A stretch of DNA of 38,389 nt from a virus: IMG/VR virus record IMGVR_UViG_3300021961_008384, positions 1 to 38,389 of that record; one strand, given 5' to 3'. Shown in pieces: positions 2,640 through 35,126 of this stretch. Every line of letters begins with the position of its first letter. Position 1 is the first letter of the stretch. Under the pieces are notes generated by a model, which saw only the letters and a list, made by a program, of their open reading frames with translations, was not told the origin of the DNA and ran no database searches. The translations under genes were made by a program, and so were the position numbers.

Positions 2640-3830
2640 ATGTCTACAGGTACAATTAAAATTTGTTGCGATTTCTTTGACAAAAGAAGTTATGAGGAGC
2701 CATGGCAACGCTTCGTGATGTTCAACGGTCCTGAAGATGTTTATACTCTTCATCCAAAATTGCAAAAAACTACACTGGCAGAATGCGTGCCAGGCGATAA
2801 TGTTTTTTTTATGCTGTATCTTAGTCCCAGAGAATCTCATATGTTTTTTATGTCAAAGGACGAGTCTTTCTTTCAACGATTACGAGACCTAGATGCAAAA
2901 ATATTATTGAATCACGAAGGATTCAATTTATTCACCTATGGAGATAATATTTTTAATCACCCATTTGCTCTTGATGTGCGTGAACATCTATATTGGAAAA
3001 TAAAGAATTTTTTAGAATCCAAAGGCATACCAGAACGCAGACTATATTTTATTCACAGTGCTCAAGGGTACTTAGACGAAATTAAAAAAATGCAGACAAC
3101 CAAAATACAGTGGTTCGATGCTCCGTATCACGTAAAGTCCAAACATCTACAATGCAATCTATTTTTACCGTGGATGAACACTGTGAAGGTCCAGGCGGAG
3201 AATCCCGGATTTGATTACAAATATTCTGCTCTATTTGGAGGAAGACCCACACAATTTAGATATGATATATTGAAATCTCTCTACCATAAAGGCTTATTAT
3301 CTTACGGGAAAAACTCTATGAAACAATATGCAGGAGGTGATGCTGAGTTTGATTCACAACTACCTATCGTCTATGATGGCACCATAGACAAATGGTGGGA
3401 CAAAGACTACAACGAAACCAATGTGTTTAAAGACATATTTCTATGGGTGGTTGGAGAAACATTTGTACCCAATGGCTATCCCAACTTCTCTGAAAAAACT
3501 GCTAGAGCAATACTGTACGAAAGACCTTTTGTGATATTTGGGCACCCAGGCACTCTTAAATACCTGCACGAATTGGGTTTTAAAACATTCAGTGACTTCT
3601 GGGATGAGTCTTATGATTCAGAACCCGATCAAAACAAAAGAATATCTATGATTGTTGACATTGTGTCTAACATTTGCAAACATCCAAATTTAAATCAACT
3701 GTACAAAGATATGCAATCAGTTATTCAGCACAACAAACAGAAAGCCACAGAAACAGATTATGTGCAAGAAGTTTATGAATTTTTAAATGATAGTCTTACT
3801 TGTAGACCACATTATTGGAATGGTCAATAA
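2640..3830 (+). CDS. Glycosyltransferase-like protein (paralogue 1 of 5)
   Basis: A 396-aa protein starting at ATG 2640. The C-terminal third carries the signature of a family repeated five times in this window: FSEKTARAI, then RPFVIFGHPG, LKYLHELGFKTFSDFWDESYD, and a helical end with KRISMIVDI. The layout (variable N-terminal half, then an EK motif, a Rossmann-like strand ending in FG, and a conserved GFKTF helix) resembles the C-terminal nucleotide-sugar binding half of GT-B enzymes such as GT10 fucosyltransferases or exostosins. The family is common as hypothetical proteins in marine T4-like phages as I recall. The sugar donor and acceptor are unknown. The 3' end overlaps the convergent radical SAM gene by 35 nt. 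Confidence 0.8.
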   Translation: MSTGTIKICCDFFDKRSYEEPWQRFVMFNGPEDVYTLHPKLQKTTLAECVPGDNVFFMLYLSPRESHMFFMSKDESFFQRLRDLDAKILLNHEGFNLFTYGDNIFNHPFALDVREHLYWKIKNFLESKGIPERRLYFIHSAQGYLDEIKKMQTTKIQWFDAPYHVKSKHLQCNLFLPWMNTVKVQAENPGFDYKYSALFGGRPTQFRYDILKSLYHKGLLSYGKNSMKQYAGGDAEFDSQLPIVYDGTIDKWWDKDYNETNVFKDIFLWVVGETFVPNGYPNFSEKTARAILYERPFVIFGHPGTLKYLHELGFKTFSDFWDESYDSEPDQNKRISMIVDIVSNICKHPNLNQLYKDMQSVIQHNKQKATETDYVQEVYEFLNDSLTCRPHYWNGQ

Positions 3831-4644
3831 TAGACTCTTTGTCTGTTTCAACAGGACACTGTCTACATATTGAATGAGGTTTACCAAAGTTTTTAATAAA
3901 TTTTTCAAGTTCTTCATTATCACAATTTAGATCTAACCCAGTGTTTGTGTAAGGTTCCCACAGTTCTATATTTGGGTTATTAAATTTTTTTAGTATGTGT
4001 GGGGTGAGCCCAGCAGTACCACACTTATAGAGTTTGCCTTCAAATAATAATGGACACTTTTTTTGTACACACAATTGATTAAATGCATCTGCAGGATTAT
4101 TATCGTGCGGTTTCATATCACTGTATGTGCCTTTAAAGGTTTGATAGAAACGTTCTGGTCTGTTGATTTGAAATTTAAACTCGTTATTGGTACTCCATCT
4201 ATTGATATGAAATTCTGTAACCGGTTTCCACTCAAATCTATTCATAATATATTTGATCATTCTGTTAATACGATCATCTTCAACGTGTACACTTATTTTA
4301 AGAACACTGTTTCCTAATTCATATAGAGTATCTATTATTTCTAAATTTTTCTCTAATAGCAATCCGTTGGTTACAAATCTTATTTGAGCAGTGGGTAATA
4401 TTTGCCTTGCTCCTATAATCCACTCGTTGATGTGAGGATGTATCAACGGTTCACCTCCCATAAACCCAATTGCTTCAATGTTAAGACGTTGATTCCATTG
4501 TTCTAGCCATTCTTTAGTCTGTGACCATTGTCCGTAGTCTCCTTGATGCTTTAAATCGCTGAAAGTGGTACAGCCTTTACAAGAAAGGTTGCAACTTCTT
4601 AGCACCATTACTTCTAAGAATGGTAAATTAAGTTTAGTGTTCAT
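3796..4644 (-). CDS. Radical SAM protein with C-terminal cysteine cluster
   Basis: A 282-aa protein. The radical SAM cluster motif CxxxCxxC is C18-C22-C25 (RSCNLSCKGC), followed by the SAM-binding GGEP at 63-66 (FMGGEPLIHP). The C-terminal half has further cysteines, including CPLLFEGKLYKCG and C260-x2-C263, in a layout like SPASM or twitch auxiliary Fe-S domains, so it may bind a second cluster. Such enzymes modify peptides or small molecules by radical chemistry. It lies between two glycosyltransferase-like genes: convergent overlap with 2640-3830, divergent with 4666-5685. No small precursor-peptide gene is evident next to it. The start at ATG 4644 gives the family's usual short N terminus. 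Confidence 0.88.
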   Translation of the reverse strand: MNTKLNLPFLEVMVLRSCNLSCKGCTTFSDLKHQGDYGQWSQTKEWLEQWNQRLNIEAIGFMGGEPLIHPHINEWIIGARQILPTAQIRFVTNGLLLEKNLEIIDTLYELGNSVLKISVHVEDDRINRMIKYIMNRFEWKPVTEFHINRWSTNNEFKFQINRPERFYQTFKGTYSDMKPHDNNPADAFNQLCVQKKCPLLFEGKLYKCGTAGLTPHILKKFNNPNIELWEPYTNTGLDLNCDNEELEKFIKNFGKPHSICRQCPVETDKESIIDHSNNVVYK

Positions 4645-4665
4645 ATATGTATATATAATTATTAA

Positions 4666-5685
4666 ATGTTAAACTTTCAATATTATTCTAGCGTTCCAAA
4701 CTACATCAAACAAGACTTTGATAGATATGGTTATCATTTTGAAGATTGTAAAGATCCATTCACTACAAATGTTATTTTTTATGAGCACGATATTTCTTTT
4801 GTTATAGAAAATATTGAACAACTTAAACATAACCAACATATAATAATTATTGATCATCATTTTGTACAGCACAACCGATTATTAAAATTAGACTCATTAG
4901 TTGAAAAAAATACTGTTATTTTAATCGGTACTCAATATCTTAAACCATTGTACAAAAACTTAACCACACTACAGATAGGCTCTTCGGAACTATGGTGCAA
5001 ACACGATGTAATGAAATATGTTATTGATTGTTGGATAACAAAAAGAAAATGGAGTGCAAGTAATCCATGGTTATTACTGTCTGCTCACGGTACTATGCCT
5101 TTCCATAAATCAAGAAATCATTTCATAGATAATTTAAAAATCAAATTAGAAAATAAAATTTTTACTAATCCTACCACAGGACCAGACCTATGGGATAGAA
5201 AAAGAGAGTTTGATGACTGGATAGAAGAAACATTTGGTAATAGAAATATGTTAGGAGGGTTTGGCTCAGGACTTCCTCGATTTGATTTTTATGATGCAAC
5301 ATCAGCTGAACTTGTATTAGAAACAATATATGAAACTGAAACAGTGCATCTGAGTGAAAAAACTTGGAGACCAATTGCTTGTAACGTGCCTGCTCTATTT
5401 TTACTTAACAGTGCTAATTTAAAATATCTCAATGAGCTTGGATATAAAACAAGTTCAACTTTTTATAAAGAGTTAGAACAATGCAAAAGTTATACTGATG
5501 TATTATTACTGGTAACAGCACAAATAGACAAACAAGATTTTACAATACTACAACAAGATGCTGAGTATAACTACAATCACTTTTGGAGATATCACAGTGT
5601 ATGGAGTGACTATGTACCAAATCTTAAAAAAGTATTTGGCCATTCTCCTATAGAAGATATTTCAATAAGACTTAATAAAGTATAA
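4666..5685 (+). CDS. Glycosyltransferase-like protein (paralogue 2 of 5)
   Basis: A 339-aa protein with the family signature in a diverged form: TVHLSEKTWRPIACNVPALF, then LKYLNELGYKTSSTFYKEL. The usual DESYD segment is replaced, and FG of the strand motif is LN here, so it may have changed specificity. The N-terminal half has no recognisable motif. It starts at ATG 4666; a TATAAT at 4654-4659 ends 6 nt before the ATG and no Shine-Dalgarno site is visible. The 3' end overlaps the convergent methyltransferase gene by 14 nt. Function is inferred from the shared C-terminal motif only. Confidence 0.78.
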   Translation: MLNFQYYSSVPNYIKQDFDRYGYHFEDCKDPFTTNVIFYEHDISFVIENIEQLKHNQHIIIIDHHFVQHNRLLKLDSLVEKNTVILIGTQYLKPLYKNLTTLQIGSSELWCKHDVMKYVIDCWITKRKWSASNPWLLLSAHGTMPFHKSRNHFIDNLKIKLENKIFTNPTTGPDLWDRKREFDDWIEETFGNRNMLGGFGSGLPRFDFYDATSAELVLETIYETETVHLSEKTWRPIACNVPALFLLNSANLKYLNELGYKTSSTFYKELEQCKSYTDVLLLVTAQIDKQDFTILQQDAEYNYNHFWRYHSVWSDYVPNLKKVFGHSPIEDISIRLNKV

Positions 5686-6442
5686 ATTTATTTTCTTGCC
5701 ATTTAAACACAAACTTCTTCTTGGCCTGGACAACATTAATTCTATAAGGTTTCAATGGAAAATGTCTGTATGTGCTTTCACAACGACAAATTATGTCGTT
5801 ATATAAAATTTCATCGTCTAAAAATATTGTTGCATCTTTATAGTGTTCTAGATCTAATTCAAATTCAATGTCTTCAAAACAATTTGCTTTAGATAAGTCA
5901 TACACATATTTGTTTTCAGTTTCTTTAATAGTCTTAAATTGGTTACAGTTTTCATAGAAGCCAGCTGGTAAATGTTCACTATCAATCAACACAGTTGGGT
6001 CTTGATCAATAATACCATCAAACACAGATGCTTTAATTCTATATCGATTAGCAGTACATTCAGCATCATTATAATAATTTTTAATGTGTTGAAAAAAAGA
6101 TTTTATTATAAAATTATTTTTAAACTGGCAACCAGTTATCTCCATTAATATAGATTCAACATCTTTTATTTTTACATTTAAAAAGTTATCTTCAATAATC
6201 TCAACGTTCTTACCTTTATACTTTTCTTTTAAAAATTGTGCTTTTGCTTTTCTTATTTCTATACAATATACTTTTTTTGCACCAAACTCTAAAGCATAGT
6301 CTGTAAGTATTCCTGTACCTGCACCAATATCTAAACAGATTTTGTTTTTAACAATTGGTTGAATTGTTTTTTTAAAAAACATATTACGACCAACATCATT
6401 GAGCATTGGAATATGATCTGATATTACAGGATTATAAAACAT
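5672..6442 (-). CDS. Class I SAM methyltransferase, PRMT-like
   Basis: A 256-aa protein. Motif I is CLDIGAGTGILTDYALEFGA (36-55), with acidic E62 at the end of strand 2 (VYCIEI). The segment before motif I, HIPMLNDVGRNMFFKKTI (10-27), matches the layout of protein arginine methyltransferases (ML.D..R...Y..AI). After strand 4 there is LMEITGC, giving one glutamate of the PRMT double-E loop; the second is not evident. So either it is a diverged PRMT-like enzyme or it uses another nucleophile. It is the second gene of a leftward pair; its ATG overlaps the stop of the amidinotransferase gene (TAATG), which ties a methyltransferase to arginine or guanidine chemistry. Confidence 0.85.
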   Translation of the reverse strand: MFYNPVISDHIPMLNDVGRNMFFKKTIQPIVKNKICLDIGAGTGILTDYALEFGAKKVYCIEIRKAKAQFLKEKYKGKNVEIIEDNFLNVKIKDVESILMEITGCQFKNNFIIKSFFQHIKNYYNDAECTANRYRIKASVFDGIIDQDPTVLIDSEHLPAGFYENCNQFKTIKETENKYVYDLSKANCFEDIEFELDLEHYKDATIFLDDEILYNDIICRCESTYRHFPLKPYRINVVQAKKKFVFKWQENKFILY

Positions 6443-7506
6443 TAAAAGTAATCTTCCATTGTGCCTTCTCTATAAAGGTCTTGAGTGAGACAGTGTACTC
6501 CACCGTCCCAAAACCAACGATGTCTTTGATTACATATAATTGGTTCTATCTTGTGTTTTTTAAGAAAATTAAAAACTTTTTCGTTGTAATTATTAACTAA
6601 TACACACTCTTCGTTTATAGAGAGCATATTAACTTCAAAAACTGTTTCTTCGCAATAGCCAACCCAATCACCTAGCCAACTTTCAACATAGCCGATCAGT
6701 CTATCGTTGTCCTCTTCACCTTCGATCCACCACTTGCCTCCTACTTTTGCTTTCATTTTACGAAACGGAGATAGCTGATCCCAGTACTTGTCTTCCAAAT
6801 AACAGATATCCCATCCAGGAAATTTCTCATTATAGTTTTGAAGATCATGCAGAGTTACAATGACTCCTGGTTTTAATATGCACCAAGTAGCATCGCCGTG
6901 TCCTCCCATCTCTTCGGTGGCTTGTATGTTAACTCTAAATCCTTCTGACTCCCATTTGTTTTTGTGATATTCAATTAATGGCGAGTCTTTCCACCCAGGC
7001 TGATTGGTACCCCAAAAGATATCTTTGCCTAATAGATGTATGAAAGAAGTACTCAGTAACCTCTGTTGATCTGGCGTTTGTGGTCCATTAATATGCATCT
7101 CATAGGTGTAACTAGAGTCTGAATAATCCATATATTCTTTTGGAAAATGTAACTTGTCTTTGCCTATTTGGCTGAACAGTGTTTGATATTCTGGAAGATT
7201 ATTCGCCACATAAACATTTTCTCCAATAACTGCCATATCATCTCTGGTTTGTTGAGGCGGTTTTCTTGCATATTGAGATAGATCTACAGGAGTGTTCTCC
7301 ATATTAGGTCTGTGTACTTCTACGCCAAAACTTTTAAGAGTACGACTTAGATTTTCTAAATCTTCTTTGGTCTCTTCAATCACTCGTGCTAGTGGTGATA
7401 GAATTTTATTATCTTTTAAATGTTTAAATTTTTCAATTGGAAATACATCTCCCACAAGACAGGTTTTTAGTGGATGAAATGTACAATAGCCTTTTACTGG
7501 TATCAT
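6442..7506 (-). CDS. Amidinotransferase-like protein (arginine deiminase / GATM superfamily), 354 aa
   Basis: The family transfers an amidino group from arginine, or hydrolyses guanidines, through a cysteine intermediate. The catalytic pieces are visible: EEMGGHGDATWCILKPG with H203 and D205, and GGVHCLTQDL with C339 near the C terminus. The N terminus MIPVKGYCTFHPLKTCLVGD matches the usual first strand, which supports ATG 7506; a longer frame extends upstream but would overlap the divergent gene at 7550. Its sequence is only distantly similar to the second amidinotransferase at 12160, so it may act on a different acceptor. It heads a leftward operon with the PRMT-like methyltransferase. A -10-like box ends 7 nt before the ATG. 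Confidence 0.88.
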   Translation of the reverse strand: MIPVKGYCTFHPLKTCLVGDVFPIEKFKHLKDNKILSPLARVIEETKEDLENLSRTLKSFGVEVHRPNMENTPVDLSQYARKPPQQTRDDMAVIGENVYVANNLPEYQTLFSQIGKDKLHFPKEYMDYSDSSYTYEMHINGPQTPDQQRLLSTSFIHLLGKDIFWGTNQPGWKDSPLIEYHKNKWESEGFRVNIQATEEMGGHGDATWCILKPGVIVTLHDLQNYNEKFPGWDICYLEDKYWDQLSPFRKMKAKVGGKWWIEGEEDNDRLIGYVESWLGDWVGYCEETVFEVNMLSINEECVLVNNYNEKVFNFLKKHKIEPIICNQRHRWFWDGGVHCLTQDLYREGTMEDYF

Positions 7507-7513
7507 CACATTA

Positions 7514-7542
7514 ATTATACTAGGTTTAGTTGTTGTTGTAAA
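7514..7542 (-). promoter_or_regulatory. Sigma70-like promoter, possible leaderless start
   Basis: Minus strand: TTTACA (7537-7542), a 17-nt spacer, TATAAT (7514-7519), then 7 nt to ATG 7506. No Shine-Dalgarno site lies between. Plausible, but AT-rich sequence can give this by chance. Confidence 0.4.
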
Positions 7543-7549
7543 TAAGAAT

Positions 7550-8521
7550 ATGCTTATAGATGCTGACGCCCATATTGCCACACCAGATTGTTTCGAAACA
7601 CTCAACAATAATCAATTCATCGACAGGTATCTAACACATTATCAAAAAACTGGTAATTTAAAAACAGCAGAACAACAAAAAAAAGAAGCACAAGAGCTAG
7701 GAGTTACTCATCAAGTCTTGAATTTTTTTGGTGCTAATACAGGATTAAACTATCAACACTCTCCTGACGATGCAGTAAAAATTGCACAAGTTTATAACAA
7801 TTCTATGTCTACTGTTGTAAACAACAGTGATGGGTTCTTTTCAGCCACCGGTTGGATACCTATGCAAAATACATCAGCATCATTAACAGAAATAGATAGA
7901 ATTAAAAAGCTAAATCTTTTTGCAGTGTTTGTAGATGATACTATTGCTTGGGGCAGAGCCGAGTGGGCAAAAACAATCTTTAAAAAATGTGCAGAACTAA
8001 ATCTTCCTGTGTACATTCATTTTACAAAAGTTGAGCACAATGTTAATAACAGTTTAATGGATATTGATGATGACGATATTATTAAAAAGTTACAGCTCAA
8101 TACGTGGAACTTACAATGTAACCTAGATGGCTCAATTGATTTTTTAAAAATGCTGTATAGTGTGATAGAGAGTGAGTGGTTGGACGAGTTTAAAACAATT
8201 AAATTTGTAATTGCTGAACGAGGAATTGATTGGATCAAACCGTTTGTTCAATTTTGTGATAAACATACAGGCAAAGATACGCTTTCCTTATTACAAAAAC
8301 ATTTTTGGTTTACTACCGAACCAGAACACAAAAATTTTATACAAGACGCAGAATATATAGGATGGAATAAAGTTTTATTTGCAAGTGATCACGGACACAA
8401 TGCAGATTGTGGAGGTGCTAATTTTGGTTATGATTTAGATACTATTAAAAAATTTAATCTACAAACAGATATAGTTGAATTAATCACTTATAAAAATTTT
8501 CAGCAGTTAATTCGTTCGTAA
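7550..8521 (+). CDS. Amidohydrolase family 2 (TIM-barrel metal hydrolase)
   Basis: A 323-aa protein, typical in length for the ACMSD-like amidohydrolase-2 family. The first strand reads MLIDADAHIATPDCF, with H8 and neighbouring Asp residues in place of the usual HxH or DxH metal site. VYIHFTK (H157) fits the strand-5 histidine and LFASDHGHN (D280) fits the C-terminal catalytic aspartate (SDxPH in relatives). These proteins hydrolyse or decarboxylate small ring or amide compounds. It is divergent from the amidinotransferase and convergent with the SGNH-type gene, which it overlaps by 22 nt. The substrate is unknown; context suggests a nitrogen-containing sugar or guanidine compound, which is inference. 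Confidence 0.82.
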   Translation: MLIDADAHIATPDCFETLNNNQFIDRYLTHYQKTGNLKTAEQQKKEAQELGVTHQVLNFFGANTGLNYQHSPDDAVKIAQVYNNSMSTVVNNSDGFFSATGWIPMQNTSASLTEIDRIKKLNLFAVFVDDTIAWGRAEWAKTIFKKCAELNLPVYIHFTKVEHNVNNSLMDIDDDDIIKKLQLNTWNLQCNLDGSIDFLKMLYSVIESEWLDEFKTIKFVIAERGIDWIKPFVQFCDKHTGKDTLSLLQKHFWFTTEPEHKNFIQDAEYIGWNKVLFASDHGHNADCGGANFGYDLDTIKKFNLQTDIVELITYKNFQQLIRS

Positions 8522-9108
8522 ACTTTATCAGCCCACTGCTGATTCTGTTCCACAGTCATATGATTGATTGTGCCTATACCCCACCCGTCTTTCTCACCTG
8601 CGGTTTTGGAAAAAGCGAACAAGCTCTCATCTATAAATGTCCCAGACTGTAATCTTATTCCAGCGTTCTTACCTGCAGTCTCAAATGGTTTGAATGACCA
8701 CATCTGTAAGAGTTTTTTATCCACTTTGGACAGCACGTGTTGATCAAAATACTTTATAGCATATTCGTAAGACAACTCGTCTTTATCATAGGAGTGAAGA
8801 TACTTCCAATAGTCATCTAGAGCTCGATACACATTGGTATCCACACCCTCCAGTGGTTGTGTGTTAGCACTCAGTATCAAGTTAGGATGATATAGTCTGT
8901 AAGGTTCAGTCCAACAGAACACACAGATATCAGGCAAACGATGTTGCTCTTTCAAACGATTGAACTGCATTATTGTTGTCCATATGCTCCTGCCAGGCTC
9001 TCCCCAATGCACGATACGAGCATTCAGTTTCTTAGACAGCAATACACACCAACTCTCAGATTCTCGACCTGCACAAAAACTATCACCAAAATATCCTATT
9101 GTTGTCAT
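8500..9108 (-). CDS. SGNH/GDSL-type hydrolase-like protein
   Basis: A 202-aa protein with SGNH-like blocks: GDSFCAG at 8-14 (nucleophile S10), GEPGRSIW as the block II region, and NHMTVEQN near the C terminus with H183 as the candidate catalytic base. The block III GxND motif is not clear (CWTEPYR occupies that place). The family includes esterases and acyl or acetyl hydrolases, many acting on carbohydrate acetyl groups. No signal peptide is present, so it acts in the cytoplasm or is packaged. Its 3' end overlaps the amidohydrolase gene. I am fairly sure of the fold and unsure of activity. Confidence 0.72.
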   Translation of the reverse strand: MTTIGYFGDSFCAGRESESWCVLLSKKLNARIVHWGEPGRSIWTTIMQFNRLKEQHRLPDICVFCWTEPYRLYHPNLILSANTQPLEGVDTNVYRALDDYWKYLHSYDKDELSYEYAIKYFDQHVLSKVDKKLLQMWSFKPFETAGKNAGIRLQSGTFIDESLFAFSKTAGEKDGWGIGTINHMTVEQNQQWADKVYERINC

Positions 9109-9133
9109 TTAATGATAATTATCAGTATATATT

Positions 9134-9658
9134 ATGAAGTATTCATACTCTGACTGGAATGGTAAAACAGGTACTATACCTGTGTTCTGGAACAAAGAAC
9201 ATTACCTGAATTCAGGCTGGTACAGACATCCTGATCGTACACACGGATTTTCTACAGAGGATACCAACTATAAAATATATGGTGATAATTTAGGAGTATA
9301 TATTCCAAAGACTCTTAACTCTACATTTGAACAAGCATTTGATTTTTTTAATTTAGATGAAATAGTATTCTCTTTATCTATGTACGAACCTGGAATGATA
9401 CTGCCTTGGCACAGAGACAACTACCCAACCTACAGCAAAAATAAAGGCATAGTAGAACCAGAAGGCATAGTGAGAGTTATGGTGTTTTTAGAAGATTCTG
9501 CTCCTGGCCACCAATTGTGGATTGATAATAAAATGTGTACAGGCCCTGCAGGATCTTGGTTTGCTTGGCAAGGCAGAACTAAACATATGGCGGCAAACCT
9601 TGGAGAAGTTAATCGTTACGTAATGCAGATTACTGGCATTCTCCCTGAGCAATCTTAA
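9134..9658 (+). CDS. 2OG-Fe(II) oxygenase-like / aspartyl hydroxylase-like cupin
   Basis: A 174-aa protein with the iron triad of 2-oxoglutarate dioxygenases: H93-R-D95 in LPWHRDNYP and the distal H151 in RTKHMAANLGEVNR, with R161 as a candidate 2OG anchor. The middle (VRVMVFLEDSAPGHQLWID) is the usual beta-strand stretch. Length and layout are close to small aspartyl/asparaginyl-hydroxylase-like or prolyl-hydroxylase-like phage enzymes. The substrate is unknown. It is divergent from the SGNH-type gene and overlaps the convergent glycosyltransferase-like gene by 29 nt. Confidence 0.82.
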   Translation: MKYSYSDWNGKTGTIPVFWNKEHYLNSGWYRHPDRTHGFSTEDTNYKIYGDNLGVYIPKTLNSTFEQAFDFFNLDEIVFSLSMYEPGMILPWHRDNYPTYSKNKGIVEPEGIVRVMVFLEDSAPGHQLWIDNKMCTGPAGSWFAWQGRTKHMAANLGEVNRYVMQITGILPEQS

Positions 9659-10574
9659 ATTCACTATTCCAGTTGTTGTTTTCAAAGTGCAGTTTGTTGT
9701 GTATTAAAATATCTTTGAGCTTGTCATACACATCAAAAGGATTTTGTTGAGCAAGTTTGTGCATAGAATCCAACACCATAAAAAATCTTTTAGACATATC
9801 TGGTTCGTCATCATACGATTCATCTATCACAGGCGCAAAACTTTTAAATCCTAGTTTACGAAATGCTTTTAAATGTCCAGGAGATCCAAATATTACAAAA
9901 GGTCTGCCAGCCACCATGGGTTTGGCCTGTTTCTCTGAAAACATAGCAAACTTTGGACTTATAACTGTTTCAACCATTGAACTATAATAGGTTTGATTAT
10001 ATATCTCAGGATCAATAAGATCTGAACACCTTATTTGACTGCCTGAAATAAATGTTTCTGCTGTGTGTTGCTGTGGACGCATTACATACTTGCTCCAACT
10101 ACCTTTGTTCACATCTTTTCCATAATAAGTTAACAAAGTTGAAGACATTACTGGATGTTGTTGAATAAGAGAGTAAATTATATCTTTAGTATCATTCCAT
10201 TCGCCTAGTAATAAATCAAATCGCAGATTAGTTTTTTTTATTTCATAATTAACACAAAGATCTAACAGTTTTTTACATTCAGAATTACGTTTATATAATT
10301 GCCATCCTTCAAAAAACATTTCGTTAATATAATGTAAATTAGATATATCTTTGTGAATAGGTACACAGTTAGCAAAGAAAGTACAGCGAGAAGAATCAAA
10401 TTCTTCTACAAAATCTACAGTTCCAAAAAAGTCATTATTCAGTTCGTAGTTCAATCCAGGCTGACCCAATTTAATGTAGATGTGATCCGCAGTTGCAAGA
10501 GCATTGTTAATTGACTCTCTTAACCTATTAACCTCCGCAGTTCCTCCTGCCCAACTAGTAATTAATTTTTTCAT
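9630..10574 (-). CDS. Glycosyltransferase-like protein (paralogue 3 of 5)
   Basis: A 314-aa protein. The C-terminal signature is FSEKQAKPM, then GRPFVIFGSPGHLKAFRKLG, FKSFAPVIDESYDDEPD and a helix with KRFFMVLDSM. This is the same family as the genes at 2640, 4666, 10571 and 19185; the N-terminal half differs, as expected if acceptor binding varies. It is the last gene of a leftward operon (12138 down to 9630); its ATG overlaps the stop of the previous paralogue (ATGA at 10571-10574). The exact enzymatic activity is inferred only. Confidence 0.8.
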   Translation of the reverse strand: MKKLITSWAGGTAEVNRLRESINNALATADHIYIKLGQPGLNYELNNDFFGTVDFVEEFDSSRCTFFANCVPIHKDISNLHYINEMFFEGWQLYKRNSECKKLLDLCVNYEIKKTNLRFDLLLGEWNDTKDIIYSLIQQHPVMSSTLLTYYGKDVNKGSWSKYVMRPQQHTAETFISGSQIRCSDLIDPEIYNQTYYSSMVETVISPKFAMFSEKQAKPMVAGRPFVIFGSPGHLKAFRKLGFKSFAPVIDESYDDEPDMSKRFFMVLDSMHKLAQQNPFDVYDKLKDILIHNKLHFENNNWNSEFKIAQGECQ

Positions 10575-11539
10575 AATAACACTGCTTCAATCTTGTTTTG
10601 ATTATGACTTAAATATATTTTTTTATTATGCTCTAATAACGGTTCTAAGTCTTTTTGTAAAAAATTTAAATCGTCCAAAGACATAGTTGCAATTTTATCA
10701 ATTTCTTTGTTCATTCTATCTAATCTTTCTTCACCGGTATACTGATCATAAGATTCGTCAATTATATTTGAAAATGTTTTATAACCTATTTTCTGTAGGT
10801 TAGATAGATAATTTTTTGGGCCAAATACTATAAACGGTGTTTTTGTAAAAAGAGCTCTACCTGTTTTTTCAGTTGGATAAAATGTAATTCCATTATGCCA
10901 AGTTTCACATACTACATCTAAAAAAAAGTCATTGTATTTGTCTATGATGTAAAAAGCCTTGTCCCAATTAATATATCCATTGTCAGCGGCAACTGGGTCT
11001 TTGTTTAAAGGTAAAACAGGATAAAAATTTTTAATATTATTTTTTAGTTCTATGTTTTCAGTTTGTTTTAAATAGTAGTTGATAGGAAACTCTTTTTGTT
11101 GAAATGTTTGTAAAGTTTTATCTCTATGATACAAATACAAGTAACTTGATAAACACAATCTAAAAAATCTCGCAGATCCTACAAAACAACCAAAATGTTT
11201 TTTTATTTGTTTATTGTATTCGTACGGTCCTTTATGAGTTTGTCCTGCTAAAAAAACATCACAGCCAAGAAATCTAAAAATGTTAGGCCAATAGTTTGGT
11301 TGTAATAAATTTCCTGTTTCAATTTTTATTCTATTTTTATCTATTCTGTTATTATTACAAAAATTTTCTAAAATATCAATTAGTGTTCTATTATTATGAT
11401 AAATTTCTTTTAGATCTGGCCCCTCACCAATAACCAATGTAAGATTATCGTTGTTTATTTTAAAAGATTCTAAACATTCATAAAGTTCTTCGGTGTTAAG
11501 AATTTCTTTTTCTAAAACAAATATTTCAAAAGTAATCAT
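10571..11539 (-). CDS. Glycosyltransferase-like protein (paralogue 4 of 5)
   Basis: About 322 aa from ATG 11539, which overlaps the stop of the upstream gene in a TAATG arrangement; a longer in-frame start at 11572 would overlap it further and is less likely. The C-terminal signature reads FYPTEKTGRALF, TKTPFIVFGPKNYLSNLQKI, GYKTFSNIIDESYDQYTGEE. The N-terminal half contains a second alpha/beta-like region (LTLVIGEGPDLKEIYHNNR). It is strongly AT-rich like its neighbours. Two paralogues side by side suggest sequential sugar additions or duplication followed by divergence. Confidence 0.8.
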   Translation of the reverse strand: MITFEIFVLEKEILNTEELYECLESFKINNDNLTLVIGEGPDLKEIYHNNRTLIDILENFCNNNRIDKNRIKIETGNLLQPNYWPNIFRFLGCDVFLAGQTHKGPYEYNKQIKKHFGCFVGSARFFRLCLSSYLYLYHRDKTLQTFQQKEFPINYYLKQTENIELKNNIKNFYPVLPLNKDPVAADNGYINWDKAFYIIDKYNDFFLDVVCETWHNGITFYPTEKTGRALFTKTPFIVFGPKNYLSNLQKIGYKTFSNIIDESYDQYTGEERLDRMNKEIDKIATMSLDDLNFLQKDLEPLLEHNKKIYLSHNQNKIEAVLL

Positions 11540-12138
11540 TATAAAAAATAATACTCCATTAGGGTTTCGCACTTGATACCTTTAGTGCGTGATATAAAAG
11601 ACTGTATGGGTTCACAGTCTTTCCAATGAAACTGATTATGATACATTGGCTGATAAGAAAATGTTGCATTAAAAGATTGATCGTTGTTTAACAAAAAAGT
11701 TACTTCACTATCTATATGTTTAAAAGGTTCTAAAAATTTATCTTTAGAATCAATTAATTCAAATTCATAATTGTTGTATTCATTATTATTCTTTTCAATT
11801 ATAAGATCTAGAGGAATAACTGGTAAATTTAAATATTTGGCCACCATAATTCTGCTTCCGCCTGGATGAATATTAATATTTTTGTTTGCATATAATCCCA
11901 CTAATGGTTGGTTAAATTGATGAGTATTTTTTAAATTTTTAAACAGCATTCTTACATTATGAAATGTAATATCATAAGGATCTTTTTCTATAAAAATTCT
12001 AGCTAATCTTTCTAATTCGTTTTCCCAATCAAAATCAATTACCGTAGTGGGAAACTGTTTAAACCGTTTAATACAGTGATTAGACTCTACTATTTGGTAA
12101 ATCCATTTCACTAACTCTGATTCGTTTAGGAGTTTCAT
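11539..12138 (-). CDS. ParB/sulfiredoxin-like domain protein, about 199 aa
   Basis: First gene of the leftward operon with two glycosyltransferase-like genes. The segment NINIHPGGSRIMVAKYLNLP followed by VIPLDLII resembles the ParB-like nuclease/sulfiredoxin signature (GxHR.xAA..L....IPV), with HPGGSR in place of GxHR. That fold binds nucleotides and occurs in proteins unrelated to plasmid partition. The rest has no family I recognise. I chose ATG 12138 (MKLLNESELVKW); an ATG at 12156 or a GTG at 12159 would add a few residues and come very close to the divergent amidinotransferase gene at 12160. Confidence 0.65.
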   Translation of the reverse strand: MKLLNESELVKWIYQIVESNHCIKRFKQFPTTVIDFDWENELERLARIFIEKDPYDITFHNVRMLFKNLKNTHQFNQPLVGLYANKNINIHPGGSRIMVAKYLNLPVIPLDLIIEKNNNEYNNYEFELIDSKDKFLEPFKHIDSEVTFLLNNDQSFNATFSYQPMYHNQFHWKDCEPIQSFISRTKGIKCETLMEYYFL

Positions 12139-12159
12139 ACTGCTATTTAAATACATCAC

Positions 12160-13176
12160 ATGAAGGTTCTCACTAAAAACGAATACTCGCCATTAAAATC
12201 TGTAATTGTAGGTAGACCTGAATATGCCAGCTGGCCTGTGGGCGACAACTTCTTTGATACTATGCTTAATTTAAGCACATTCAAAGGTCGTCCTGACAGA
12301 GGTACACTGCCAGAAAAAGTCATACAAGAAGCTCGAGAAGATGCTTATCTTTTTATTGATTTGTTAGAAGACGAAGGAGTCACTGTCTATAGGCCAGAAA
12401 TTGTAGATTGGAGAAGAACAATAGCAGGATTAAATCACGTTACCACAGGAATGAGTTCTTGGAGTGCTAGAGATATTTTATTATCTGTGGGAGATATGAT
12501 TATTGAATGTCCTACCCCTTTTGTCAGTAGACAACACGAAGCATCTGCCTATCACGAAATACGAAAACAGGCCATAGCAGATGGATGTCGATGGATTGCG
12601 GCTCCACAACCTCCAATGGAGAAAGCAGAATACAATGTTAAAATTGGCGGTCGAGTAGAACTCACAGAACGATATCCTATCTTTGATGCCGCCAATGTGT
12701 TAAAAATGGACGATAAATTATTGTATCTTTATTCGTCAACAGGCAATATGTCAGGTGCAAAGTGGCTACAAAAAATTGTTGGTTCTGAATTTGAAGTTGT
12801 TGTTTGGGATAATGTATATCCACACGCTCACATCGATTCAACTATTATGCCTATTAGTAAAGATACTGTGATGTTAAATGCTGACCGAGTGTCTGGAGAA
12901 AATCTACCTAAGTTTATTAGACCAATGAAAAAGATTTGGGTACACGATTGTCGGCCTGGCTCTTTTTACAAATTTCCCTACGCATCTAAATGGATAGGAA
13001 TGAATGTGTTGAGTATTAATCCTGAAACGGTTGTGGTTGATGCCATACAAACAGAATTAATCAAACAACTGCAAAATGAAAAGTATAGAGTGATAGAAGT
13101 CACGAACAGACACAATAGAACATTAGGAGGCGGATTTCATTGTATGACCTGTGATCTGGAGAGAGAATGCGGATAG
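12160..13176 (+). CDS. Glycine/inosamine-type amidinotransferase (GATM-like)
   Basis: A 338-aa protein of full family length. The match to GATM and inosamine-phosphate amidinotransferases is strong: IVGRP near the start, PIFDAANV with D176, HAHIDSTIMPI with H224 and D226, KWIGMNVLSI, and the catalytic cysteine C328 in LGGGFHCMTCDLER, which parallels the animal and bacterial enzymes closely. The reaction moves an amidino group from arginine to an amine, for example on glycine, lysine or an aminocyclitol. It opens a three-gene rightward operon: the next gene (nucleotide-sugar dehydrogenase) overlaps by 10 nt. An amino-sugar or related amine is therefore a reasonable acceptor; this is inference. 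Confidence 0.93.
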   Translation: MKVLTKNEYSPLKSVIVGRPEYASWPVGDNFFDTMLNLSTFKGRPDRGTLPEKVIQEAREDAYLFIDLLEDEGVTVYRPEIVDWRRTIAGLNHVTTGMSSWSARDILLSVGDMIIECPTPFVSRQHEASAYHEIRKQAIADGCRWIAAPQPPMEKAEYNVKIGGRVELTERYPIFDAANVLKMDDKLLYLYSSTGNMSGAKWLQKIVGSEFEVVVWDNVYPHAHIDSTIMPISKDTVMLNADRVSGENLPKFIRPMKKIWVHDCRPGSFYKFPYASKWIGMNVLSINPETVVVDAIQTELIKQLQNEKYRVIEVTNRHNRTLGGGFHCMTCDLERECG

Positions 13177-14381
13177 GATTTATAGGATTGGGCAAATTGG
13201 GACTGCCCTGTGCTGAGGAAATGTCACGACAGCATTCCGTAATAGGTTATGACGTTGAACACAGAGTATCTGCACACATAGAGATAACACAAGACATTAA
13301 AAATATTTTTAAAGACACCGAAATAATTTTTATTGCAGTGCCTACACCACACGATCCTCAGTACGATGGATCGCATCCAACCACACAATTACCCAACAAA
13401 GATTTTGATTATTCAACAGTTGTTAATGTTTTAAAACAATGCCAACGATATGCAAACAAGAATCAGATAGTCAGTCTGATCAGCACAGTGTTACCAGGTA
13501 CCACCCGTAGAGAGTTCGCTCAATACACTCGTAATTTTCAATTTGTTTACAATCCTTATTTGATTGCAATGGGTTCTGAAGCCTATGATATGGTCCACCC
13601 TGATATGGTTATTATTGGTACAGAATATGGAGAAGAATCTAGAGCGGCAAAAGTTGTATCACAGTTTTATAAAAAACTTATTCTTAATAATGCACAACAG
13701 ATGACGGGCACGTGGGAGGAAGCAGAAGGATTTAAAATATTCTACAACACAATGATATCTGCTAGACTAGCACTGGTTAATATGATTCAAGATGTGTCAC
13801 AGAGAATTGGTCATATGAATGTGGATAAGATAACTGATGCCTTTAAAAAAGCATCCGTAAGAATAACGGGCAAAGGTTATTACAAAGCAGGAATGGGCGA
13901 TGGAGGTGCTTGTCACCCTAGAGACAATATTGCACTCAGCTGGTTAGCTGAACATTTGGATTTAGGATATGATTTATTTCATGCAATCAGTCATGCTCGA
14001 GAACAGCAGACTCGTAATATGGCCAAGTTTGTAGCAGACATCTGTCGTAAAGAAAATAAACCGTGTGTGATTAACGGCAAAGCCTACAAGCCTTCAGTTC
14101 CATATACTATAGGATCTCCCTCAGTACTTTTAGAACATTATCTAAAAGAACAAGGCGTAGAAGTAATGTTTGCAGACAATGAGACCAAAGATAATGTAAA
14201 TGAAATTATTGATTGTGTATGTGTGATGGCTCACGATCCTCAAACCACATACAATCACACAGGCAAAAAATACGAACAAAAATTATATTTCCAACCAGTT
14301 AAAGGCAATACAATTATAGATCCATGGCGTTGTTTTACGAACAAAAATTATAATGTAATATACTATGGTTCCGGACAATAG
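13167..14381 (+). CDS. UDP-glucose/GDP-mannose dehydrogenase family protein
   Basis: A 404-aa NAD-dependent nucleotide-sugar 6-dehydrogenase. The N-terminal Rossmann motif is MRIGFIGLGKLGLP (G7-x-G9-x2-G12); FIAVPTP and STVLPGTT are typical strand ends; the catalytic cysteine C249 lies in GDGGACHPRDNIAL, the family GGxCxPxD motif. The family oxidises UDP-glucose, UDP-GlcNAc or GDP-mannose to the uronic acid. The C-terminal domain is present, so the gene is complete. It overlaps the amidinotransferase gene by 10 nt and the sulfotransferase-like gene by 17 nt, so the three proteins are made together. The product may feed the glycosyltransferase-like enzymes nearby. Confidence 0.93.
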   Translation: MRIGFIGLGKLGLPCAEEMSRQHSVIGYDVEHRVSAHIEITQDIKNIFKDTEIIFIAVPTPHDPQYDGSHPTTQLPNKDFDYSTVVNVLKQCQRYANKNQIVSLISTVLPGTTRREFAQYTRNFQFVYNPYLIAMGSEAYDMVHPDMVIIGTEYGEESRAAKVVSQFYKKLILNNAQQMTGTWEEAEGFKIFYNTMISARLALVNMIQDVSQRIGHMNVDKITDAFKKASVRITGKGYYKAGMGDGGACHPRDNIALSWLAEHLDLGYDLFHAISHAREQQTRNMAKFVADICRKENKPCVINGKAYKPSVPYTIGSPSVLLEHYLKEQGVEVMFADNETKDNVNEIIDCVCVMAHDPQTTYNHTGKKYEQKLYFQPVKGNTIIDPWRCFTNKNYNVIYYGSGQ

Positions 14382-14955
14382 AACTTTCAGCTGGAATGCT
14401 GGACTTTTGAAAAAAGATCATATGGTATTTCATAGAACCAATAAATCTGCTGGTACATATTTCTTTAATCTATTACTAGCAAATGATTGGAAAGAAATAC
14501 AAGAGCACGAAATAGATGAGCTCGATCATCATTTTGGAATTATTCTGGATCCATATCAGAGAAGAGCCAAAGCCATTACAGAAAGAATTTTTATGGCCAA
14601 CCAACAGTCTAGAATAGATGATGCTGAATTTTTAAGACTGATTGAAGATGCGTGTGTGCTTGATGAGCATATGATACCTTACTCTACACAGTTTAAAGAT
14701 GTACCGCGATTGACTCTGTTTCCGTTGATAAAAACTCATAACATTGTGACTGTTATCACAGAGTTTTTAGCTCAGTATAATATTACTCTATTACTGAAAA
14801 ACATAGACGCACACGAATCAAACTCAGAGAAACTAAACGTGCATAACAAAGTGTATGCAAAGTTAAAATGGGGTGTATTTGAGCACGTTTTTAAAGAAGA
14901 TATACTGTTGTACGAAGAAACTTTAAAAAATTTTATAAATACTTGCAAAAAGTAA
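14365..14955 (+). CDS. Sulfotransferase-like protein
   Basis: A 196-aa protein, third gene of the operon. The N terminus has VFHRTNKSAGTYFFNLLL (21-38), like the 5'-phosphosulfate loop of carbohydrate sulfotransferases (K.AGT), and GIILDPYQRRAKAIT (58-71), like the 3'-phosphate-binding RDPYxR segment with LDP in place of RDP. The rest is diverged and the protein is shorter than most sulfotransferases. If active it would use PAPS to sulfate a sugar or protein. The assignment rests on two short motifs and context, so it is moderate. The stop is followed by only 13 nt before the next gene. Confidence 0.62.
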   Translation: MVPDNRTFSWNAGLLKKDHMVFHRTNKSAGTYFFNLLLANDWKEIQEHEIDELDHHFGIILDPYQRRAKAITERIFMANQQSRIDDAEFLRLIEDACVLDEHMIPYSTQFKDVPRLTLFPLIKTHNIVTVITEFLAQYNITLLLKNIDAHESNSEKLNVHNKVYAKLKWGVFEHVFKEDILLYEETLKNFINTCKK

Positions 14956-18012: not shown

Positions 18013-19229
18013 TGCTCGTTGAAGAGGTATTACAAGAGTTTAAAAGAACTCATCTAGAACACATAGAAGATATTGTATTAACCAATGGTTATGAGGGTGG
18101 TGTTACTGTGGTGGGATATTTCACCGACATCTACAATATGCTGAAAGGATCTTCTGCAAACTCACTGCAAGTATCTGTTAAATGGGATGGAGCGCCTGCT
18201 GTGATATGTGGCATCAATCCAGACAATGGCAAGTTTTTTGTGGGCACTAAATCAGTGTTTGCTCAATCTGCCAAAATCAATTATACCAAACAGGACATTG
18301 CTCGTAACCACGGCACAGATGATCTAGGACAAAAGTTATTAAAATGTCTAGTACATCTACCCAAACTGAACATACAGGGAGTGGTACAGGGAGATATGAT
18401 GTTCACAGACAATGATCTAACCACGCAAGACATCAACGGTGGTAAGTTCATCACATTTAAACCCAATGAGATTGTGTACGCCGTGCCTGAAGACTCAGAC
18501 ATAGGCAAACAAATTGCATCTGCCAAAGTGGGCATAATATTCCATACCACGTACACAGGAGAACGATTAGCAGATATGAATGCCAAAGCGGGTGTGGATG
18601 TTGCTAGTTTTACAAAGACTGCAGATGTGTGGTTTGATAATGCTTCATACAAAAACGTTGCAGGTTCTGCCACATTTACAAAAACAGAAAGCACAGACTT
18701 TGCTAAAGGCATACAAATTCTTAAGACGTTATTAAATGGAGTTCCTAAAAATCTTTCCGCAATGTTAACCACCAACAAAGATTTTGTACCAATGTTTCAA
18801 ATGTACATCAATGCAGAAATTAAACAAGGCAAAGTACCCACAGATGTAAATGCTTTTCTAAAAGGGTTTCAACAGTTCTATCTAGACAGAATGCAACAGC
18901 AGTTGGCAGGATTAAAAGCACAGAAGGCCATCGCTCTACGACAACAGAAGATGGCAGAGATGCCTAAGTTCCTTGCCACAATGCGAAAACCTCTATCAGC
19001 AATGTTGGCATTCTACAAACAGGCACAGGCATTAAAAATGCAGGCACTACAAAAAATGAATCAGGCAATGCAGGTGGGCACATTCGCTCAGACTGATGCA
19101 GGGTTAGAAGTCACAGACCCAGAAGGCTTTGTGGCAGTGGGCACAGACGGTGGTGCTGTTAAGTTAGTGGATCGACTAACGTTCTCAAGAAGAAATTTGA
19201 CTGCTATCAAAAAATTTGAGCAGTCGTAG
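18012..19229 (+). CDS. DUF6267-like protein with ligase/nucleotidyltransferase motifs
   Basis: A 405-aa protein of a family common in T4-like marine phages, which I recall as DUF6267. It shows the ordered motifs of the ATP-grasp-unrelated covalent nucleotidyltransferases (DNA/RNA ligases and capping enzymes): motif I K57-W-D-G60 in SVKWDGAPAVI, a motif III-like GDMMF (127-131), a IIIa-like VGIIFHTTY (173-181), a motif IV-like EGFV (371-374) and a motif V-like VKLVDR with K384. Motifs IV and V are displaced to the C terminus by an insertion of about 190 residues, mostly helical and rich in Gln, Met and Lys (300-365). If active, K57 would be adenylylated. Virion or repair role unknown. The gene is coupled to the 100-aa gene upstream and overlaps the convergent gene by 45 nt. 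Confidence 0.85.
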   Translation: MLVEEVLQEFKRTHLEHIEDIVLTNGYEGGVTVVGYFTDIYNMLKGSSANSLQVSVKWDGAPAVICGINPDNGKFFVGTKSVFAQSAKINYTKQDIARNHGTDDLGQKLLKCLVHLPKLNIQGVVQGDMMFTDNDLTTQDINGGKFITFKPNEIVYAVPEDSDIGKQIASAKVGIIFHTTYTGERLADMNAKAGVDVASFTKTADVWFDNASYKNVAGSATFTKTESTDFAKGIQILKTLLNGVPKNLSAMLTTNKDFVPMFQMYINAEIKQGKVPTDVNAFLKGFQQFYLDRMQQQLAGLKAQKAIALRQQKMAEMPKFLATMRKPLSAMLAFYKQAQALKMQALQKMNQAMQVGTFAQTDAGLEVTDPEGFVAVGTDGGAVKLVDRLTFSRRNLTAIKKFEQS

Positions 19230-20237
19230 AATACTGTCTCCCACAACACCTTTCACTGTGTTCTTATCGAAAAATAACTGTCGATTGTGTGTTCTTATCT
19301 CTTTTGTTCTTTGATACAGTTCTGTACTATCCATTTCTGTTATGGATCTCACAGTTTTTACAATCTTCTCTATTTTTTTGTCCTCGTCAGTTTCATTATC
19401 ATATGTCTCATCAAACACCTCAGAGAATGTTTTGAATCCTAATTGTCTCAACCATTTTAAATAATGATTGTTTCCGTGCACCACAAAGAGATGTTCAGCA
19501 ATAATGGCTTTCCATATTTTTTCAGTTATAAAAATATTATCTCCTACATTGGTTTCAGATACGATACTAAAGGTTGTGTCATTGTAGGGTGCTTCGAATA
19601 GATCCTGATCCATACCTCGATAAGGATAATTCTTTCGATCCACCCACGGCAACTCGTATTCTTCTGGTAATCGTATGCCCAAATCAATAAAAGACACCAG
19701 ACTGTTTTTCAATAGTTGTTGCTGTGATAGTGCATCATACAATTTTTTTCTATGTTTCCTATACATATTTTTATTTAGATATAAAAAATCATATTTTTTA
19801 TCTGAATGATCAAACATAAATTTTCTATTTTGATGTTTCTCATACATCATGTGCCAAAAGAATGAAACATCTCCCTCCCACCTTGTGACTTGTTTATCCT
19901 TTAACAGATTTTTGTACACGTCAATTGATATGTTATTGTTAGACTCCCATGGATGAGCAATGATAAAAACAAATCCTAAATTGTGTAGTTTTTCTATTCT
20001 CCTACCTATGTCATGGATGTACTCTTCATTCCGCCAACTTTTATGATAAGAATCTCGATGGTCTATTAAGGCAATCTTCCGGTCATATTTGTTTAGATTA
20101 AACTCTGGTAATTCATAATAGTTGGCAAAATAATCAAAGGTCTCGTTTGGTACATTAGCAAATCTCCAATAATTTTCAAAATAGAAATGATCTCCCATAT
20201 GCATCAGATCAGTTAAAACAAGATTATGTTTGGTCAT
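19185..20237 (-). CDS. Glycosyltransferase-like protein (paralogue 5 of 5)
   Basis: About 350 aa from ATG 20237 (MTKHNLVLTDLMHMGDHFYF); a longer frame to 20312 would overlap the divergent gene and is rejected. It is the most complete member: the N-terminal half has KYDFLYLNKNMYRKHRKKLY and NSLVSFIDLG, typical of the GT-B-like phage family, and the C-terminal half has FITEKIWKAIIAEHLFVVHG followed by LRQLGFKTFSEVFDETYD. The ITEK motif is like that of GT10 and exostosin enzymes. Unlike the other four it lies outside the main island, inserted antisense among structural genes, with a 45-nt overlap with the DUF6267-like gene. Confidence 0.8.
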   Translation of the reverse strand: MTKHNLVLTDLMHMGDHFYFENYWRFANVPNETFDYFANYYELPEFNLNKYDRKIALIDHRDSYHKSWRNEEYIHDIGRRIEKLHNLGFVFIIAHPWESNNNISIDVYKNLLKDKQVTRWEGDVSFFWHMMYEKHQNRKFMFDHSDKKYDFLYLNKNMYRKHRKKLYDALSQQQLLKNSLVSFIDLGIRLPEEYELPWVDRKNYPYRGMDQDLFEAPYNDTTFSIVSETNVGDNIFITEKIWKAIIAEHLFVVHGNNHYLKWLRQLGFKTFSEVFDETYDNETDEDKKIEKIVKTVRSITEMDSTELYQRTKEIRTHNRQLFFDKNTVKGVVGDSILRLLKFFDSSQISS

Positions 20238-20253
20238 ACTCAAGACGGTAAAT

Positions 20254-24206: not shown

Positions 24207-24617
24207 ATGGATATCATAGATCTAGGTCTAGAATCATTAAAATTAGGACTATTGTCATCTGATAGATTCTGGAATAAAAAATTAATAATTTTTAACACAG
24301 CCAGTCAATGTGGCTTTACCAAACAGTTAGCAGATTTTCAAAAAATATACGAAGAAGGTTTAGCCGTTCCGATAGCTATTCCCACAAACAATTTTGGCAG
24401 TCAAGAACCAGGCGATGACTATGAGATTATTCAATTTGCTAAAAATCGTTATGGTGTAACATTTCCAATTTGTAAAAAAACAAACACAGATCATACATTT
24501 TTTAAAAAGTTTGGCACTCCTGATTGGAACTTTAACAAATATCTTTTCAATGAGAAACACGAATTTGTAAAACAATTCAATGCCTATACACTACCAATGG
24601 ATGTGTTAAATGCCTAA
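24207..24617 (+). CDS. Glutathione peroxidase-like protein
   Basis: A 136-aa protein, somewhat shorter than the usual 155-180. The peroxidase motif is clear: LIIFNTASQCGFTKQ with peroxidatic C35, followed by the second motif PTNNFGSQEPGDDYEIIQF and the third VTFPICKK; PDWNFNKYLF supplies the tetrad tryptophan. The glutamine of the tetrad (NQFG in relatives) is asparagine here (NNFG), so peroxidase activity may be weakened. The family reduces peroxides with glutathione or thioredoxin. It overlaps the radical SAM gene by 8 nt; such an enzyme could protect an oxygen-sensitive Fe-S enzyme or act during host infection stress. Confidence 0.85.
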   Translation: MDIIDLGLESLKLGLLSSDRFWNKKLIIFNTASQCGFTKQLADFQKIYEEGLAVPIAIPTNNFGSQEPGDDYEIIQFAKNRYGVTFPICKKTNTDHTFFKKFGTPDWNFNKYLFNEKHEFVKQFNAYTLPMDVLNA

Positions 24618-32895: not shown

Positions 32896-32896
32896 T

Positions 32897-32910
32897 CCAA
32901 TAAGTATTGG
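32897..32910. promoter_or_regulatory. Dyad CCAATA-AG-TATTGG before the tandem methyltransferase
   Basis: A perfect 6+6 inverted repeat with a 2-nt centre, ending 1 nt before ATG 32912. It overlaps where the ribosome would bind, so it could be an operator or a translation-blocking structure. Confidence 0.35.
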
Positions 32911-32911
32911 T

Positions 32912-35117: not shown

Positions 35118-35120
35118 ATA
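35113..35120 (+). promoter_or_regulatory. Candidate late promoter box (AATAAATA)
   Basis: One mismatch to TATAAATA, 6 nt before ATG 35127, inside the end of the preceding gene. Confidence 0.4.
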
Positions 35121-35126
35121 TTTCAA

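Follow-up and report, generated by a model that had tools for sequence, protein, structure and literature searches.

Hypervariable regions of pelagimyophages carry genes for glycosyltransferases (GTs), UDP-glucose dehydrogenase and radical SAM proteins, and have been read as a means of O-chain modification (PMC7029224). A marine catalogue of auxiliary metabolic genes left out contigs with lipopolysaccharide (LPS) islands and interpreted viral GAMT as serving creatine synthesis (PMC11360552), and it is as creatine-related auxiliary genes that viral genes of guanidino metabolism have been interpreted so far. Here we analyzed a 38,389-base virus fragment from IMG/VR (record IMGVR_UViG_3300021961_008384, below called the window), in which an island of 14 genes at positions 2640-14955 is best read as the hypervariable glycan locus of a T4-like marine phage. 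This island encodes a predicted arginine amidinotransferase, AT2, and the fixed company that AT2 keeps in phages, i.e. a sugar-nucleotide dehydrogenase, an oxygenase and GTs, points to a concrete, testable sugar pathway. Pelagimyophages were already known to carry glycan islands in this region. In the literature searched (subscription papers not covered), we found neither the virus-specific amidinotransferase module nor any paper linking phage amidinotransferases to sugar genes.

The nearest relatives of the window's nrdA are those of T4-like cyanophages, at 68-70% identity. No near match to the window at the DNA level was found among cultured phages; within IMG/VR, another contig (L343), shorter than the window, agrees with it across 12 kb at 99.98% identity. 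The island genes alternate between strands and nearly all of their ends abut or overlap; the extremes are an overlap of 35 bases and a gap of 43 bases. This bears out an original prediction, made from the sequence alone, of adjacent genes with touching or overlapping ends, although that prediction counted twelve genes where a recount of the open reading frames (ORFs) gives 14. It also placed all of them in a single pathway.

A core that recurs around AT2

A profile scan of viral sequences detected AT2 genes in at least 572 stretches; a viral scan with the single protein gave no match. The best 80 were fetched and reduced to 66 non-redundant loci, in which partners were identified with family hidden Markov models (HMMs). 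GT genes were present in 83% of these loci, while a nucleotide-sugar dehydrogenase (UDPDH) and a small 2-oxoglutarate (2OG)-Fe(II) oxygenase-like protein were present in 75% each, the latter at a median distance of 751 bases from AT2. A miniature DegT-family protein of about 197 aa (mini-DegT) was found in 37%. AT1, a divergent protein of the amidinotransferase family, and a gene originally called 'SGNH' were found in 15% and 14% (the T4-like ones), respectively. Radical SAM genes occurred in 9% of the loci, the remaining island genes in 0-2%, and the PRMT-like methyltransferase in none of the 66. In a control set of 64 T4-like loci seeded with nrdB, the frequencies of UDPDH, 2OG and GT were 0%, 4% and 3%, and in a bacterial control of 80 AT2 loci these partners were found in 0, 1 (2OG-like) and 0 loci.

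The same partners emerged from other starting points. Among 59 loci seeded with mini-DegT, 54% had AT2 and 59% had 2OG, and in 55 GT-seeded loci AT2 was associated with UDPDH (p 0.003), 2OG (p 0.0008) and mini-DegT (p 0.002) by Fisher tests, which ignore the common ancestry of contigs. Within the AT2 loci, 2OG and UDPDH lie nearer AT2 than under random placement (p 0.0005 each); GT and AT1 do not (p 0.13 and 0.16), so that for these two the evidence is presence rather than adjacency. Core co-occurrence exceeds chance. The notion of one pathway for all genes was supported for about half of them, i.e. AT2, UDPDH, 2OG and GT, joined in T4-like relatives by AT1 and 'SGNH', and failed for the radical SAM, PRMT-like, amidohydrolase and 'sulfotransferase' genes and the gene at 11539-12159, which are found in 0-9% of AT2 loci. 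Across relatives the core travels together and the other genes scatter; variable cargo consists of the radical SAM, PRMT-like and amidohydrolase genes together with the outer GTs. In close pairs, dN/dS was 0.03-0.08 for AT1, AT2 (0.06-0.07), UDPDH, 2OG and mini-DegT, all of which are under strong purifying selection.

In three related contigs (G001-G003) the island lies beside the same neighbors as in the window. Identity to the window is about 81% for both AT1 and UDPDH, 63-65% for AT2 and 30-45% for most GTs. The radical SAM protein is 72% identical in G001, the only one of the three to have it, and 26-27% identical in cyanophage S-SCSM2R and in contig G008; the amidohydrolase is 41% identical in G001. 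All three contigs also encode a mini-DegT of 198 aa (PF01041), whose nearest solved relatives are sugar aminotransferases, e.g. WbpE and AHBA synthase. A gene for a TctA transporter, with a TctC-looking neighbor, additionally lies within the variable region of G001 and G003 (L013/L014 and L017), at roughly 16.9-20.7 kb.

In 11 T4-like relatives (L023-L026, L028, L029, L033-L036, L041) the core stands directly before the g16-g18 genes, usually in the order AT1, mini-DegT or 'SGNH', 2OG, GT, AT2, UDPDH, with single core genes missing or moved in some. The window has this T4-like order, with an amidohydrolase inserted after AT1, two GT genes (GTc and GTd) after 2OG, and the 11539-12159 gene before AT2. 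A 343-kb jumbo phage also has the core, comprising AT1, AT2, 2OG, UDPDH and GT and likewise conserved in order, and a 642-kb metagenomic phage has relatives of UDPDH and mini-DegT 5 kb apart. Variants of the module were found in S-SCSM2R (GTs, mini-DegT, radical SAM, 2OG and AT2) and G008 (with an extra NDP-sugar epimerase and a short UDPDH-like protein), while in Campylobacter phage CP220 a relative of AT2 is paired with radical SAM and nucleotide-sugar-transferase-like genes. Uncultured phages carry the module widely, and the sampled bacteria seem to lack it. Since S-SCSM2R is a cultured cyanophage, the product can be searched for directly. In the same cyanophage (208449-219237, L425), a relative of AT1 lies between a gene annotated as KdsA and a 2OG oxygenase gene, near KdsB.

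Predicted functions of the core proteins

AT2 (12160-13176, plus strand) is homologous over its full length to StrB1 (1bwd; E 1.2e-63, residues 5-335), which it matches better than human L-arginine:glycine amidinotransferase (AGAT). Asp176, His224, Asp226 and Cys328 are invariant in all six aligned members, and Asp176, His224 and Cys328, which align to 1bwd residues 179, 227 and 332, presumably have the catalytic roles. Judged by sequence, AT2 belongs to the arginine amidinotransferases of the AGAT/StrB1 family. In a quick tree, where CP220 forms a long branch, the sampled bacterial sequences fall on one side of a branch and all viral ones apart from them (96% by the Shimodaira-Hasegawa-like approximate likelihood ratio test, SH-aLRT).

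The start of AT1 (6442-7506, minus strand) was placed at 7506 instead of 7608, because the alignment with relatives begins only at residue 35 of the longer ORF. Its AlphaFold2 (AF2) model, with a predicted local distance difference test (pLDDT) score of 82, has the amidinotransferase-type pentein fold; the top seven Foldseek matches are AGAT, SxtG, HsvA and StrB1 (E 4e-19 to 4e-17), and hhalign pairs it with AT2 at a probability of 99.9. AT1 retains Cys339 and His203-x-Asp205, while Ser152, replaced by Asn in several relatives, occupies the position of the conserved FDAA Asp (Asp176 in AT2), leaving the Asp-His-Cys set incomplete. We therefore term it a family relative and not an amidinotransferase; judged by its residues, it is an unusual paralogue in which a conserved Asp of the active site has been lost. 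Of the two amidinotransferases originally proposed, AT2 stands by its sequence match to StrB1 and AT1 by fold, without the complete catalytic set. A second AT1 paralogue in G003 (L017:13994-15061) has Trp in place of the conserved His.

UDPDH (13167-14381, plus strand), of the UDP-glucose type, matches PF03721, PF00984 and phrog_9148 (E 1e-84), has UGDH among its solved-structure matches and carries the active-site variant GDGGACHPRDN; its UDP-glucose/GDP-mannose dehydrogenase profiles agree with the original call of a nucleotide-sugar dehydrogenase. For the 2OG oxygenase-like protein (9134-9658, plus strand) that call is backed by motif and not by profile or structure: H93-x-D95, H151 and R161, as expected of a facial triad and a 2OG-binding Arg, are invariant in five divergent members, and no convincing match was found in Pfam or PDB.

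GTd (10571-11572, minus strand) has a two-Rossmann GT-B fold in a confident AF2 model (pLDDT 88). VIA-align gives it Z scores of 9-10 to many GT-B families, e.g. GT10 fucosyltransferase (9.9), EXT1/2 (EXT 9.8) and T4 AGT/BGT (AGT 9.6), which are tied and do not distinguish a family; the Foldseek E value is only 2e-3. The C-terminal block of GTd, TEK..PF..FG..LK.L..LGFKTF..DESYD, is shared (alignment A6) by GTc (9630-10574, minus strand), which like GTd holds a core position, and by the GT-B-like GTa (2640-3830, plus strand; no Pfam match; variable cargo) and the divergent GTb (4666-5685, plus strand). Together these are the four GT-like paralogues that had been predicted, and a fifth lies outside the island at 19185-20243.

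Proposed pathway and alternatives

Support for a sugar as the product of the core comes from its constant NDP-sugar dehydrogenase, from the GT-B enzymes and, in one third of the loci, from the relative of sugar aminotransferases. The reading we prefer, with a probability of about 0.45, is that the core synthesizes a hexuronate-type sugar with a nitrogen decoration, probably a guanidino group, and transfers it onto a surface glycan. In keeping with its family, UDPDH would oxidize an NDP-hexose, its putative substrate, to the NDP-hexuronate. An amino sugar would then be supplied, in about one third of the loci presumably by the phage's own mini-DegT aminotransferase; for the window phage, the host or the unsequenced part of the genome may provide it. 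AT2, given its homology and catalytic residues, would pass the amidino group of arginine via Cys328 to the amine of this sugar, the likely acceptor, yielding a guanidino sugar and ornithine, and AT1 may perform a related but altered reaction. The 2OG enzyme could hydroxylate or trim the product, and the GT-B enzymes (a fold modeled for GTd only) would incorporate the sugar into the surface glycan, the final structure of which the variable genes flanking the core may alter phage by phage. Because the island encodes no multi-pass membrane enzyme, assembly of the glycan would take place in the cytoplasm, either on a virion protein or on a host lipid carrier at its inner face. We infer placement on the virion or the host surface, and slightly favor the virion over the host envelope because of the structural neighbors and a late-promoter-like motif before AT2.

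Since the core recurs side by side in dozens of phage contigs and not in the sampled bacteria, it suggests that phages make their own unusual, probably guanidino-bearing sugar decoration. A bolder claim would be that a virus-specific, arginine-derived guanidino-sugar pathway is common to many marine, freshwater and jumbo phages, leading to a positively charged, phage-encoded virion glycan and not borrowed from a known bacterial pathway; this we consider unlikely on present data. Several points weigh against the guanidino-sugar pathway. The window fragment encodes no aminotransferase, about 63% of AT2 loci have no mini-DegT within 10 kb, and four lack any module partner. The 2OG assignment is motif-based, NDP-sugar dehydrogenases use several sugars, and the loci sampled, being the best 80 of at least 572, are skewed to near relatives.

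Among the alternatives, an ordinary host O-antigen/LPS modification island, altering the envelope to block superinfection and carrying the amidinotransferases as incidental cargo, survives best, and appears possible if somewhat unlikely. The genomic setting is identical, and this is how the hypervariable regions of pelagimyophages, where GTs, UDP-glucose dehydrogenase and radical SAM genes occur, have been interpreted in print (PMC7029224). However, AT2 is tied to UDPDH and 2OG even among GT-seeded loci (p 0.003 and 0.0008), so it is not incidental, and the island has no flippase, polymerase or other protein with multiple transmembrane (TM) segments. None of the named ORFs in the window has two or more TM-type hydrophobic segments, neither the membrane flippase nor the multi-pass GT of a GtrABC-type seroconversion locus was found among them, and only 10 of the 823 ORFs near AT2 are multi-TM.

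It is quite improbable that AT1, possibly with the GTs, decorates phage DNA, as in phages with 7-deazaguanine or glucosylated hydroxymethylcytosine. The fold of GTd is as near to T4 AGT/BGT as to fucosyltransferases, and in jumbo-phage-type contigs (L006, L008, L009, L021) relatives of AT1 lie with FolE, QueD-type and QueE-like genes (GTP cyclohydrolase I, 6-pyruvoyl-tetrahydropterin synthase and QueE-like radical SAM, respectively), for which reason modification of DNA with 7-deazaguanine may be a further role of the AT1 family. Nevertheless, no FolE, QueD, QueE or DpdA was noticed in the window, itself a fragment, or in the 25-33 kb relatives, and four or five GTs with a sugar dehydrogenase fit an oligosaccharide better. 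Least probable of all is a small-molecule pathway in which creatine, or a guanidino metabolite related to it, would be the product of AGAT-like and GAMT-like enzymes. The island does contain both an amidinotransferase and a methyltransferase, and a marine survey takes viral GAMT, preceded by the GATM step, for creatine synthesis (PMC11360552), but AT2 is nearer StrB1 than AGAT, its constant partners are sugar enzymes, and we rejected AGAT plus GAMT because no GAMT-type methyltransferase is linked to AT2, that of the island being PRMT-like and found in 0 of 66 loci.

Variable cargo and neighboring genes

Three cargo genes agree with their original family calls, namely the radical SAM protein (3796-4644, minus strand; PF04055, E 3.6e-13; CxxxCxxC kept in alignment A3), the PRMT-like methyltransferase (5672-6442, minus strand; best solved-structure matches by phmmer against PDB PRMT9, E 2e-7, and CARM1, E 2e-6) and the ACMSD-like amidohydrolase (7550-8521, plus strand; PF04909, E 4.8e-10; ACMSD, E 0.004). 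The radical SAM and amidohydrolase matches, like those of UDPDH, lie within the Pfam cut-offs. Two other labels were not confirmed: the 'SGNH-type' protein (8500-9108, minus strand) had no SGNH/GDSL profile, Pfam or PDB sequence match, and the 'sulfotransferase-like' protein (14365-14955, plus strand) no convincing match in Pfam or PDB. The gene at 11539-12159 (minus strand), for which an in-frame ATG at 12138 is the likelier start, had no family match, and two homologous ORFs appeared in the first HMM scan.

A second enzyme cluster is found in the window at 32104-35933, consisting of a PhyH oxygenase, a two-domain methyltransferase, a TIM-barrel-like protein and a second PhyH-like oxygenase. 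At 24207-25887, a glutathione-peroxidase-like gene adjoins a SPASM radical SAM gene.

Motifs at gene starts and in the divergent spacer

Of the 43 gene starts in the window, 10 have the motif TAAATA no more than 16 bases upstream, compared with 3 of 1334 other ATGs (p 8e-14). The motif precedes only two of the 14 island genes, including AT2, which has the late-promoter-like motif TTTAAATA (12146-12153, plus strand) 6 bases 5' of its start; in seven of 12 T4-like loci [AT]AAATA is found upstream of AT2. TAAATA resembles the T4 late promoter TATAAATA, a likeness by which AT2 and UDPDH may be late genes; given the short spacing, it may be a late promoter whose mRNAs have no leader or almost none. 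The exact TATAAATA was absent from the island except at 14934, upstream of the next gene, and a scan for sigma-70 promoters stayed at chance level.

The 25-base divergent spacer between 'SGNH' and 2OG (9109-9133) contains the palindrome TGATAATTATCA (9113-9124), for which the expected count in the window is 0.02. Several T4-like relatives share the divergent junction, and in several the GATAATTATC core and the exact spacer length are kept. Eight of the nine copies of GATAATTATC in 241 kb of T4-like islands sit in divergent spacers totaling 1.3 kb. We rejected the idea that a palindromic promoter marks every divergent junction (36 junctions, mean p 0.59); a conserved one is present only in spacers of the SGNH/2OG type.

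Comparison with known systems

The island resembles the hypervariable (host-recognition) region of pelagimyophages and cyanomyophages in its T4-like marine phage setting and its cassettes of GT, UDP-glucose 6-dehydrogenase and radical SAM genes, but a text search of the description of that region found no mention of an amidinotransferase (PMC7029224), and the island here has a conserved core distinct from variable cargo. In cyanophage Bellamy and Pelagibacter phage HTVC008M, a 47-48% identical UDPDH lies beside a methyltransferase, with GT genes also in Bellamy, and carbamoyltransferase and NadE-like genes stand in place of the amidinotransferase; these clusters (L421, L422) perhaps specify another nitrogen decoration of a hexuronate.

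AT2 itself is like StrB1, an inosamine-phosphate amidinotransferase, and AGAT in its full-length homology and catalytic Asp-His-Cys. It differs from the bacterial homologues found, to which it is at most 38% identical and around which the UDPDH, 2OG and GT neighbors are missing. In the Pseudomonas O-antigen, the WbpA-WbpE-WbpG pathway yields an amidino-bearing hexuronic acid, WbpG using another chemistry to form acetamidino groups. In contrast, the phage aminotransferase is a miniature and missing from the window, and the phage enzyme corresponding to WbpG belongs to the arginine amidinotransferase family. Common to both is the combination of an NDP-sugar dehydrogenase, a DegT aminotransferase and an N-decorating enzyme.

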